Positions 27,802-51,322 of a DNA stretch of 64,000 nucleotides are shown piece by piece. Made by a program: the position numbers and the translations under genes. The notes below the pieces were generated by a model. The model was not told the DNA's origin and did not search any database. It saw only the letters and a list, made by a program, of their open reading frames with translations. The stretch's first letter is position 1. Each line of letters begins with the position of its first letter. This DNA comes from Acholeplasma sp. Its GTDB lineage: Bacteria; Bacillota_I; Bacilli_A; Acholeplasmatales; UBA5453. The stretch spans positions 1 through 64,000 of the forward strand of contig DUNK01000015.1 in the NCBI GenBank assembly GCA_012839355.1, written 5' to 3'.

Positions 27802-28803
27802 CTACATTGACTGTCTCTTAATGATTCTATGGTTTAATGTTACCTTGACTTGTGAGATTTCTTCACCATTCATTAGTTTTGTTAAAAATCTCATTGAGAC
27901 AGCACCAATATCATAAACTGGAATATCAATTGAAGTTAAAGTTGGGCTCGCAAGTGTTGCATATTTAGTGTTTTGAAACCCAGCTACCGCAACTTCTTCA
28001 GGAACTTTTTTACCGCTTTCTCTCGCAAAGTTCATAAACGATACTGCAATTGAATCTCTAACACCAATCGCCCCATCATATTTTTGATTTTTAAAATGTT
28101 CTGCAAAGTGTCTACGATTAACTTCAGTATTACCACTAGTTCTTAATACTCTAGGTACTAACCCTGCTTCTTCCATAGCAGTTTTATAACCTAATTCTTT
28201 TTTCTCATTAACATTATACTGACGAACTGTTGATAAAATATAAATATCTTTTTTACCACTTTCAATCATAGCTTTAGTAAGTTCATAACTCGCTTTTTCA
28301 TAATCAATGGAAACAGAAGGAACTTCAGGATCATCATATAGTACATTCGCTAAAACTACTGGAATACCATTCTTTCCGCAAATGTCTAGTAACTTTTCAA
28401 TTTGTCCATGATCTAACTCATCATTTAACTGTAAAATCCCATCAACTCTTTCAGAGATGATTGTTTTTAATAGTTCGTCATAATCAATTCCTTCAGGAAC
28501 AGTAAATAGTTTAATCGCATATTTATATTTTATGGCAATATCACTTATTCCCCCAAACATTTCCGCTACCGAAGCTCTTGTAACATCACTCACTAGAATA
28601 CCTACTGTTGTAGTTCTTCTGCTTGCTAATCCGCGAGCTATTGCATCAGGACGATATCCTAACTCATCAATTACTTTTAAAACTCTGTCGCGCGTTTCTT
28701 TTTTAACTCTTTCAGGATGGTTCATTACTCGAGAAACTGTCGCAAGTGAAACACCTGCCTTGTAGGCGACACTATAAATTGTAACTTTATCATCTTTTGC
28801 CAT
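27802..28803 (-). CDS. ccpA: LacI-family regulator, CcpA-like
   Basis: TIYSVAYKAGVSLATVSRVMNHPERVKKETRDRVLKVIDELGYRPDAIARGLASRRTTTVGILVSDV closely resembles the CcpA N-terminus. Confidence 0.8.
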   Translation of the reverse strand: MAKDDKVTIYSVAYKAGVSLATVSRVMNHPERVKKETRDRVLKVIDELGYRPDAIARGLASRRTTTVGILVSDVTRASVAEMFGGISDIAIKYKYAIKLFTVPEGIDYDELLKTIISERVDGILQLNDELDHGQIEKLLDICGKNGIPVVLANVLYDDPEVPSVSIDYEKASYELTKAMIESGKKDIYILSTVRQYNVNEKKELGYKTAMEEAGLVPRVLRTSGNTEVNRRHFAEHFKNQKYDGAIGVRDSIAVSFMNFARESGKKVPEEVAVAGFQNTKYATLASPTLTSIDIPVYDIGAVSMRFLTKLMNGEEISQVKVTLNHRIIKRQSM

Positions 28804-48188: not shown

Positions 48189-49063
48189 AAGCGTTTATTC
48201 ACCACATTGATAAACCTTTCTTTAATGTCTTTATCTGTAATCTCATCAACTACCGGTCTAATTAAGCCGTTTATCATCAGTTTTTCTGCTTCCTTTTTAG
48301 TTAAACCGCGACTCATTAAATAATAAATGCTTTCTTCATCAAGTTGGCCAACCGTCGCTCCATGACCAGCAGTCACATCGTATTCATCAATTAAAAGGAT
48401 TGGGTTAACTTCAATAAATGCATCGTTTGAAGTTGTTATCCCTTGAAGATTTTGATAAGCATCAGACTTACTATTACCTTTTAAGATTTTTTCTATCCCG
48501 TTTAATACAATTCTACCATTAGCACTCGCAATAGCAACATTATACATTAAACCTTTACTATTTTTAGCTTCATGATTAATTATTACATCAACAGTTTGAC
48601 TATTATCTCTTCCAGAAATAGTAACTACTCTAACATTAACATTTGAACCTATCCCAATAAGTCTATTATTTAAGTTAGCCTTTACTTTATTATTTAAAAA
48701 ACCTACCATTAAATTTAATGATGCATCTTTTTCAATTATAACGTTTTGATTAATTGTTGCATCATCGCTTAAAAGTTCTGTAACTAATAAATAAGTTATG
48801 TTGCTGTTAGGCTTTAAAATTAAATCCACATCATATTTTAAACTTTCTTTTAGGTTGTTGTTTATTTCAATAATTATTTTCGCTTCGCTAGAGTCTTGTG
48901 CTTCAATTACTAATGGTTCATTATTACTTAACGCAAAAACAACCGGCTCTATTATTTGCCCGCTAATTTTTAATGTTTTTCCGTTATATTCAACACCCTT
49001 AGGTAATTTTTTTTCCTTTATATTAACAACCTCTTGTGGCATCTTACCTAACCTCAAAATCAA
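48185..49063 (-). CDS. sufD: Fe-S cluster assembly protein SufD
   Basis: [41 protein letters not shown]. Confidence 0.95.
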   Translation of the reverse strand: MILRLGKMPQEVVNIKEKKLPKGVEYNGKTLKISGQIIEPVVFALSNNEPLVIEAQDSSEAKIIIEINNNLKESLKYDVDLILKPNSNITYLLVTELLSDDATINQNVIIEKDASLNLMVGFLNNKVKANLNNRLIGIGSNVNVRVVTISGRDNSQTVDVIINHEAKNSKGLMYNVAIASANGRIVLNGIEKILKGNSKSDAYQNLQGITTSNDAFIEVNPILLIDEYDVTAGHGATVGQLDEESIYYLMSRGLTKKEAEKLMINGLIRPVVDEITDKDIKERFINVVNKRL

Positions 49064-49811
49064 TATTTAAATCTTTCTTCAGCCACTCATAGCCTTGTTT
49101 TTCAATTTTTTCTATTAACTCTATCCCGCCACTTTTAACGATTTTACCATCAATCATTATGTGAACATGTGTTGGTTTAATATAGTCTAAAATTCTTTGA
49201 TAATGCGTAATTAAAAGGCACCCAAAGTTTTCTGAAACCATCTCATTTACAGCTTCGCCAACAATTTTTACATTATCAATATCAAGCCCTGAATCAATCT
49301 CATCTAATATAGCAATCTTAGGCTTTAACATTTTCATTTGTAAAATTTCATTGCGCTTTTTTTCTCCGCCAGAAAAGCCTTCATTTAAATATCTATGCGC
49401 TAAACTTGAAGCCATCTTTAATTCTTTAATCGCTGCTTCATACTCTTTAAATACTTTAAATACAGAAATCTTTTCTTCCCCTCTATGACTTCTCAAAGCC
49501 GTATTAATAAACTCATAGTTTGTCACTCCTGTAACTTCAGCCGGATATTGCATCGCTAAAAAGATCCCATTACGAGACCTTTCATAAACTTCCATTTCTA
49601 AAACATCTTTATCATCTAAAAAGATTTCACCTTTTGTAACTTCATAAATAGGGTTTCCCATTATTACACTAGCTAATGTGCTTTTACCAGTACCATTTGG
49701 CCCCATAATCGCATGAACCTCACCAGTTCCTAATTCTAAATTAACTCCTTTTAAAATTTCTAACCCGTCAACTTGTGCATGAAGATTTTTGATTTTTAAT
49801 TTGCTCATCAA
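49044..49811 (-). CDS. sufC: Fe-S cluster assembly ATPase SufC
   Basis: MGPNGTGKSTLASVIMG; FSGGEKKRNEILQM; DEIDSGLDID. Confidence 0.97.
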   Translation of the reverse strand: MMSKLKIKNLHAQVDGLEILKGVNLELGTGEVHAIMGPNGTGKSTLASVIMGNPIYEVTKGEIFLDDKDVLEMEVYERSRNGIFLAMQYPAEVTGVTNYEFINTALRSHRGEEKISVFKVFKEYEAAIKELKMASSLAHRYLNEGFSGGEKKRNEILQMKMLKPKIAILDEIDSGLDIDNVKIVGEAVNEMVSENFGCLLITHYQRILDYIKPTHVHIMIDGKIVKSGGIELIEKIEKQGYEWLKKDLNIDFEVR

Positions 49812-49970
49812 AATTGCCTCCTTTAAATTGCCAATGTTATTATATAATATTTAATAGTCTATTGCTAATAAATAGACAGAAAAAATACTTATAAAAAACA
49901 TTGTTAAGCGTTTTCATTTAAAATAAAAGCCCTTTCATATTTTTTTCCTTGATTTTTGTTATATAATAAA

Positions 49971-50127
49971 GGTGATTAAAAGAAACCTTTATGTCTTTTA
50001 ATCACCCTCGTGTTTTTCTCCCAAAAAAAATACACTATTACGTTGACCGCGTTTAGATCTATTCTAAAAAAGGTCTGCAATCTCCCTTTTGGGCAAAGGA
50101 ACATCGATTATTTCGATGTTTTTTTTC
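49971..50127 (+). ncRNA. Candidate unassigned structured sRNA with intrinsic terminator
   Basis: TATAAT at 49962-49967; 12-bp 5' hairpin GGTGATTAAAAG/CTTTTAATCACC; GACC..TTTAGA-TCTAT-TCTAAA..GGTC hairpin; CCC-TTTT-GGG; terminator ACATCGA-TTATT-TCGATGT-T7. Confidence 0.6.
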
Positions 50128-50128
50128 G

Positions 50129-50578
50129 CTATAATGCTAATATTGTTAGAATAATTGTTATTACAAGCAAAATAGCAGAATAGATAAACGAAACAGCCAT
50201 ATATCTTTTAGGTATCTGATTTTCTTCAACCTGGACTTTTACTTCATAATAACTTTTTTTTGGTCTCTTGCCAACAATCATTAAACCAAACACTTTAAAA
50301 CCGTGGGTAAATATGGAGATAATGTTTTTATTGTATATAAACATAATCCAACCAATAAAAAAAATCATAATTAAAGTAAGCAACATCGCGTTTGACCAGG
50401 CTAATATAGTTAGTGACTTCTGCCAAAGTAAACCTAAAGCTGTAATTAAAAGCGAAACTGCAACATTTATAAATATTGTGATATAAATGCTTTTTTTAAT
50501 TCTTTTTCTTTCAGCTTTTTCTCTTTCTATTGCGGCTTGTTCATTATTCTTTTTTTCTTGTTTTATTTCTTTTTCCAT
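50129..50578 (-). CDS. Hypothetical membrane protein
   Basis: Charged N-terminus followed by several TM segments. Confidence 0.6.
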   Translation of the reverse strand: MEKEIKQEKKNNEQAAIEREKAERKRIKKSIYITIFINVAVSLLITALGLLWQKSLTILAWSNAMLLTLIMIFFIGWIMFIYNKNIISIFTHGFKVFGLMIVGKRPKKSYYEVKVQVEENQIPKRYMAVSFIYSAILLVITIILTILAL

Positions 50579-50581
50579 ATT

Positions 50582-51322
50582 TCATATATATCTCTTTATT
50601 AAATTACATGCTAAAAAATATTGCTTATTAGGATATCTATTTGCCGGTCTTAAATAATAGACTTTTTTAATTTTTGGAAAGTATCCAACCGATATATTAA
50701 TAAGTGCGAATGTATCTTGTTTAAAGTTAAGAACTTTTTGTAGTTCTTTTTTACTCTCATCATCAAATCTTTCATATTCTTTAAAGTGAATAACAACTTC
50801 TTTTTTTAACCTTGGATATTCATGCTCAATCTTTTCATAAATGCCTTTAATTTGATTTTGAATTGTTCCGCCATACAAATCTAATTTAAGATCTTTATTA
50901 ACAACAATACAAACAAGTGTCTTTCCAAACTGACGATAAATGCTATCTTTTTTAGGTATTTGATAGTATATAGCAAACTTAGATGTGTTTATGTGTTCGG
51001 TAAATCCATCTTTAACGAATTGTTGTTGCCAATCATCAGATAATATTGCTTTTTTCGTTTTAACTGGTGGTAAGTTTTCTTCTAACATCAATAAATAATT
51101 ATATTTATAAACAATATAATGAAGTGAATTTTTAAACTTCATAATTAAAACAAAAACAACAATAACTACAACTAAATAAATACCATCTAATATGTTACTA
51201 TCAATAAATTTATAACGATGAGCAAGAAAATAAAATACTGCCAAAGTTATAAGGGAAAAAAGAACAGTATATATTATAGTGTTCTTTTTTATCCTTAATT
51301 TTCTTATTTCTTCTTTATACAT
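50582..51322 (-). CDS. Hypothetical protein with two N-terminal TM helices
   Basis: Open ORF tightly linked to neighbours. Confidence 0.6.
   Translation of the reverse strand: MYKEEIRKLRIKKNTIIYTVLFSLITLAVFYFLAHRYKFIDSNILDGIYLVVVIVVFVLIMKFKNSLHYIVYKYNYLLMLEENLPPVKTKKAILSDDWQQQFVKDGFTEHINTSKFAIYYQIPKKDSIYRQFGKTLVCIVVNKDLKLDLYGGTIQNQIKGIYEKIEHEYPRLKKEVVIHFKEYERFDDESKKELQKVLNFKQDTFALINISVGYFPKIKKVYYLRPANRYPNKQYFLACNLIKRYI

Follow-up and report, generated by a model that had tools for sequence, protein, structure and literature searches.

We describe a conserved family of structured RNAs encoded next to the iron-sulfur assembly gene sufC in Acholeplasmatales. The family is real and uncatalogued: RNAs of this kind are known, while the family itself is found neither in Rfam nor in the literature that we searched. 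The member studied here lies in a 64,000-nucleotide stretch of an Acholeplasma sp. contig (the window), where its predicted transcript occupies positions 49972-50127 of the plus strand. Sequence comparison among relatives shows a family with its own structure and promoter architecture that is independent of the downstream gene. On balance, we favor the view that the RNA is a trans-acting sRNA of about 155 nt, activated by CcpA and independent of Hfq, whose C-rich loops would block ribosome-binding sites. A preliminary description of the locus, made from the sequence alone, had proposed a stand-alone structured sRNA. That interpretation proved largely right, being supported by covarying helices, a fixed promoter layout, a terminator in most members, the lack of an Rfam match and unrelated downstream genes.

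The sRNA gene lies where it had been placed, between two genes on the minus strand. On its left is the divergent sufC (49044-49811, Pfam ABC_tran), the first gene of the suf operon, followed by ORFs that we assign by inspection to sufD, sufS, sufU and sufB. On its right is a convergent gene for a DUF3899 membrane protein (50129-50578, Pfam PF13038). In the sRNA-bearing relatives, sufC identity is 65-69% and the DUF3899 gene is not kept as a neighbor. No ORF accounts for the conserved stretch: the 57-aa ORF with a GTG start that spans the sRNA has no visible Shine-Dalgarno sequence, and across relatives the locus keeps its helices and not a reading frame.

All sequence elements named in the preliminary description were found again, each in its place, when the sequence was re-read (plus strand throughout). 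A TATAAT -10 box (49962-49967) sits immediately 5′ of H1, a 5′ hairpin (49971-50006) with arms GGTGATTAAAAG(A) and (T)CTTTTAATCACC (49971-49983 and 49994-50006) and a loop containing CCUUU, which is of the CCUUUU type in the RNA family. Next comes H2 (50010-50033/35), a hairpin kept in relatives that exposes a CUCCC loop. Based on RNA-model alignment and fold comparison, positions 50040-50090 are the diverged equivalent of the GCCAUCC hairpin (P4) and of the outer pseudoknot helix; here GACC (50045-50048) and GGTC (50072-50075) enclose TTTAGA/TCTAAA. A second CUCCC motif (50082-50086) matches either the ACUCCC tail of the family or the edge of its GCCAUCC loop, and an intrinsic terminator made of a hairpin and a T-run (50100-50127) ends the gene.

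The stretch from 49968 to 50135 has a minimum free energy of -49.6 kcal/mol, compared to -24.9 +/- 3.5 in dinucleotide shuffles (z -7.15; none of 200 shuffles is as good). H1, H2, the small CCC-TTTT-GGG hairpin and the terminator are all in this fold as originally drawn. The 12-bp H1 hairpin is present with one refinement: assuming that transcription starts 6 nt beyond the -10 box, its outer 1-3 bp may precede the start. The two-tier hairpin is also part of the lowest-energy fold, in which GACC at 50045 pairs with GGUC at 50072, but CTGCAATC (50075-50082) aligns to the GCCAUCC loop of relatives, so that this hairpin is best read as a derived or alternative form of their GCCAUCC arm. The homologous alternative in the window, AAAAGG/CCUUUU, is about 5 kcal/mol costlier, and in the RNA-model alignment the P4 loop reads CUGCAAUC in the window and CUGCCAUCC in relatives.

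The window member retains H1, H2, both CUCCC motifs, the promoter and the terminator, and its GCCAUCC motif has decayed to TGCAATC. Because this motif is lost, the window member may be diverging in function. Another genome of the window's own family (G005) has CUUUU in the H2 loop, and retains GCCAUCC and ACUCCC. The H2-loop and GCCAUCC recognition motifs can thus decay separately.

Searches for known RNAs returned nothing for this locus. No Rfam family, including 6S, SRP, RNase P, tmRNA, the riboswitches, RsaE and RsaOG, reaches its gathering score anywhere in the window, and at an E value of 10 the plus strand of the window has no near-threshold match. Rfam also gave no match in the loci of six relatives, and DNA similarity searches against plasmids and phages gave none. 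Our literature searches found no report of an sRNA for this locus; the Mollicutes work that they returned concerned Mycoplasma, Mesoplasma or promoters.

Related loci were found by several routes. In a DNA search of relatives, the corresponding position ahead of sufC in G003 gave a match, and inspection of the spacers that precede sufC in 30 relatives revealed the same layout in many: H1 with a CCUUUU-type loop, H2, P4 with a (U)GCCAUCC loop, the outer helix and an ACUCCC tail, with a terminator in most members. H2 takes the form GUAUUUUU-CUCCC-AAAAAUAC in relatives. A scan for this hairpin pattern in 84,980 species genomes (257 Gb) matched 22 contigs, 18 of which carry Acholeplasmat-, Tenericutes- or Bacillota-type labels; all 18 have the match beside sufC. 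The four other matches (Nostoc, Spirochaetota, Omnitrophica) are chance hits, none of them beside sufC. The constancy of CUCCC in H2 partly reflects ascertainment by these searches.

A covariance model (R1), built from 22 members with the window sequence left out, detects the sRNA in 38 of the 160 Acholeplasmatales genomes, spread over nine of 28 genera and two families. Within the window, the sRNA locus scores highest with R1 (29.7 bits, E 1.7e-4; runner-up 16.9 bits). Drawing 395 genomes class-wide, with stricter filters, yielded no further taxa with the sRNA. Carriers include the cultured Paracholeplasma vituli and Peloplasma aerotolerans. Nearly all members lie upstream of and divergent from sufC, an arrangement held across the two families; many relatives have suf without the sRNA, and A. 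laidlawii-type genomes have sufC and no sRNA at that place. One contig (G056:C1) carries two sRNA copies about 99 kb apart with the same model score (L067 at 1601230 and L153 at 1700160), each beside its own sufC copy, either by segmental duplication or as an assembly artefact (contamination 7%).

MAFFT and RNAalifold recovered only H2 from the first alignment, since the helix arms do not line up from one family to the other. Consequently, H2 is the sole structure in R1, and we replaced the alignment-based test of covariation by partner-swap tests, in which the pairing of each 5′ arm with its own 3′ arm is compared to its pairing with the 3′ arms of other species. Among 26 non-redundant members, window excluded, own partners pair far better for H1 (z 10.0) and for the large hairpin P4 (z 12.5), with none of 5000 permutations reaching either value; kinship of the sequences inflates these z scores, as it does those for the outer helix. 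For the latter, 25 members with hand-anchored 3′ windows give z 5.9 (0 of 20000 permutations), and wide unanchored windows give z 3.4. Its pairs co-vary as CACC/GGUG, AACC/GGUU, UUACC/GGUAA, GACC/GGUC, UAACUU/AAGUUA, GCUC/GAGC and AAUCA/UGAUU. In most members a GCG/CGC mini-hairpin carries the 5′ strand of the outer helix in its loop, and the result is a pseudoknot; in three loci (L007, L047, L052) the mini-hairpin is absent and the outer helix is longer. Compensatory changes are thereby found in three helices (H1, P4 and the outer helix), and such swaps of whole arms between divergent species would be hard to explain without a selected structure.

The genes downstream of the sRNA in relatives fall into eight unrelated clusters on either strand. 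Together with the divergent orientation to sufC, this argues for a stand-alone sRNA and not a leader. The preliminary description had drawn the same conclusion from the convergent next gene of the window, and it is borne out by the terminator, which precedes the downstream genes, and by the divergence of suf. Beyond the DUF3899 gene, the window encodes a membrane protein (50582-51322, minus strand) that weakly matches Pfam 8xMP; proteins akin to it are encoded downstream of the sRNA in five loci of other genomes (L064, L069, L071, L081, L084).

In all members the -10 box lies immediately 5′ of H1. Comparison of the promoters agrees with the earlier remark that the -35 element is weak, and reveals a feature that had been overlooked: the weak -35 is accompanied by a cre-like box (CcpA/LacI-type) 63-65 nt upstream of the start. 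In the window this putative operator is GTTAAGCGTTTTCA (49903-49916, plus strand), with its center 64 nt upstream of the predicted start; in the RNA family it also occurs as GGGAAACGTTTTCA and GGTAATCGTTTTCA. Of the 33 promoters scored, nearly all have the center at -63 to -65: 30 were placed there automatically, L068 and L152 also have the box at its usual place although the pattern first matched an unrelated site, and in L076 the pattern match falls within the RNA. The distance from the box to sufC is variable (about 97 to 140). A regular expression for cre matches 33 of 39 loci with the sRNA compared to 2 of 19 without it (Fisher 6e-8); several of the six misses show CGGAAACGTTTTCA or CGTAAACGTTTTCA by eye, and L151 (G005), tallied as without, has a diverged RNA and a diverged box. 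From position 4 onward the box agrees with the cre consensus of B. subtilis, from which it departs at the first positions.

The promoter holds a second conserved element, AAAAGCCCTTTCAT (49925-49938, plus strand, near -43), possibly a second operator, which in the window's family reads AAAAGC[AC][CT]TTTCA. In the other family (L056-L071), a perfect palindrome, TGTAAATTTACA, is found near -40, at a comparable place between the cre box and the -10 box. The promoter region of sufC itself has a conserved direct repeat of the TGCTATTTATATGCTAAT type (TGCTA-N6-TGCTA) in many relatives (L035-L063). This repeat is a possible suf operator; positions 49840-49880 of the window have a single TTGCTA copy.

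A candidate regulator is encoded in the window. The gene at 27805-28788 (minus strand) specifies a CcpA-like protein of the LacI family (NCBIfam ccpA, E 2.5e-81, at a score under the curated cut-off; Pfam LacI and Peripla_BP_3). It is the single match to the ccpA model in the genome (27808-28788) and the only LacI-type regulator detected there, and the genome also has an HPr kinase; several relatives have additional LacI-type regulators that could bind the cre-like box. CcpA has been retained in Acholeplasmatales among Mollicutes (PMC5138195), and in B. subtilis cre boxes upstream of the -35 generally lead to activation (PMC3463425). Given the placement of the box, the CcpA-like protein, the HPr kinase and these published results, CcpA-dependent activation is the simplest reading: CcpA would be the regulator, and it would activate rather than repress.

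Accordingly, we propose the following mode of action. With preferred sugars in good supply, CcpA together with HPr-Ser-P would bind the cre box and activate the promoter with the weak -35. The 5′ hairpin and the terminator hairpin would protect the sRNA, which would expose short single-stranded C-rich motifs, namely the CUCCC loop, the ACUCCC tail and the CCUUUU loop. These would pair with Shine-Dalgarno regions rich in G (GGGAG, AAGG) on metabolic mRNAs and block their translation without Hfq. The GCCAUCC loop, held up by the pseudoknotted arm, probably serves as a second module for recognition or for binding a protein. That the gene is transcribed, that the RNA pairs at Shine-Dalgarno sites and that it has any connection to iron-sulfur metabolism are inferences. 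CUCCC and CCUUUU are complementary to Shine-Dalgarno-type sequences, and pairing of C-rich regions with Shine-Dalgarno regions is known from Firmicutes sRNAs (PMC9410917). The CUCCC loop and the ACUCCC tail are present in most members, the H2 loop of G005 being an exception. An Hfq model found nothing in 11 genomes but was positive in controls.

The search for targets yielded one weak lead. The complement of the H2 loop followed by a start codon (TTTTGGGAG plus ATG) occurs at few places per genome in 11 genomes, near the level of the reversed-pattern control and before a mixture of genes. We rejected gcvT, as the GGGAG at this gene is not conserved. The Shine-Dalgarno sequence of fhs contains GGGAG in all seven genomes of the other family that we inspected; fhs is a candidate target, but shared ancestry could explain this conservation. 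About 60 nt upstream of fhs in these genomes (L197-L203), we also observed a conserved hairpin, AAAGTATCTT...AAGATACTTTT, with a U-run after it. It lies directly 5′ of the GGGAG Shine-Dalgarno sequence, at a point where the fhs mRNA seems to start, and looks like a 5′ stabilizer or an attenuator. Gene starts are not marked by sequences complementary to the GCCAUCC loop: of the 30 places examined, nearly all are within ORFs or in the sRNA itself. Accordingly, this loop may bind a protein or serve the structure.

That observation bears on a different reading, in which the structured RNA acts mainly by binding a protein, or serves as a scaffold or a sponge, by way of the GCCAUCC loop on the pseudoknotted arm, with CUCCC secondary. 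We consider it unlikely, even though GCCAUCC and the pseudoknot are more constant in relatives than the sequences of the flanking helices, 5′ UTRs are not marked by the complement of the loop, and G005 has GCCAUCC without CUCCC in H2. The window member shows the opposite loss, having kept H1, H2, both CUCCC motifs, the promoter and the terminator but not GCCAUCC, and the known pairing modules of Firmicutes sRNAs are C-rich motifs. Another reading would make this a new Acholeplasmatales RNA family in which the pseudoknotted arm presents an almost invariant GCCAUCC to a protein or RNA partner, with activation by CcpA giving these bacteria, which lack Hfq, a dedicated RNA branch of carbon control coupled to Fe-S assembly; we regard this as speculative and only slightly less doubtful. 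An sRNA concerned with iron-sulfur metabolism or iron sparing, like IsrR or FsrA, might instead sit beside suf for co-regulation, its box being read by another LacI-type or an unrelated regulator. The sufC neighborhood kept in two families fits such a role, as does the precedent of IsrR, an iron-regulated sRNA with C-rich loops and Fe-S enzyme targets (PMC9410917). We nonetheless give it a lower probability still, as the conserved putative operator is cre-like and in phase with the sRNA promoter, visual inspection of the intergenic region showed no Fur-type box, no Fe-S gene was found as a target and many relatives carry suf without the sRNA.

The remaining explanations fare much worse. A pseudoknot, conserved loops and a terminator are riboswitch-like architecture, and in many relatives the sRNA shares its strand with the gene that follows, as would suit an RNA acting in cis, as leader or attenuator, on that gene or on suf. 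This is very improbable given the convergent gene of the window, the eight unrelated downstream clusters on either strand, the absence of suf from the sRNA transcript due to its divergence and the lack of an Rfam riboswitch match. Chance palindromes in an AT-rich spacer, with no functional RNA at all, are the least credible. The genome is indeed AT-rich and a promoter scan yields no more sites than in shuffles, but in our view this idea is refuted by the fold z of -7.15, by the covariation and by conservation over nine genera with fixed promoter geometry.

Our preferred reading, the CcpA-activated trans-acting sRNA, suggests that a suf-adjacent sRNA tunes metabolism in wall-less bacteria with small genomes. 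Regulatory sRNAs of Acholeplasmatales seem to have been little studied, and the family defined here offers strong covariation, a fixed promoter layout, cultured hosts and a clear candidate regulator. In small genomes, post-transcriptional control that does without Hfq becomes directly testable, as does a link between sugar sensing and suf, and the covariance model should widen RNA annotation in the order.

Several characterized sRNAs of Firmicutes resemble the proposed system, and RoxS, FsrA and IsrR act through C-rich regions (PMC8216469, PMC9410917). RoxS/RsaE of Bacillus and Staphylococcus is likewise a stand-alone structured sRNA that uses exposed C-rich motifs on mRNAs and is linked to carbon metabolism (PMC8216469). 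It differs in control, as RoxS responds to Rex and ResDE whereas the operator here is cre-like, and in form, as our family has another hairpin order, a pseudoknotted GCCAUCC arm and no Rfam match. IsrR of Staphylococcus and FsrA of Bacillus share hairpins, several single-stranded C-rich regions and a terminator with the sRNA described here, which adjoins Fe-S assembly genes and is thus akin in theme to these iron-sparing RNAs. IsrR, however, is controlled by Fur through Fur boxes (PMC9410917), none of which was seen by eye here, and neither IsrR nor FsrA matches in sequence. RsaI/RsaOG of Staphylococcus and RosA of Bacillus are sRNAs under carbon catabolite control by CcpA, a likeness that rests on the cre-like box (PMC8216469). 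Both have G-rich sponge regions, which we do not see in our sRNA, and neither matches it in sequence. In RosA the CcpA site lies across the start (-1 to +12) and mediates repression, while the box here lies 63-65 nt upstream, in a position for activation. RsaI also uses a C-rich region on mRNAs (PMC8216469), as we propose for the sRNA beside sufC.
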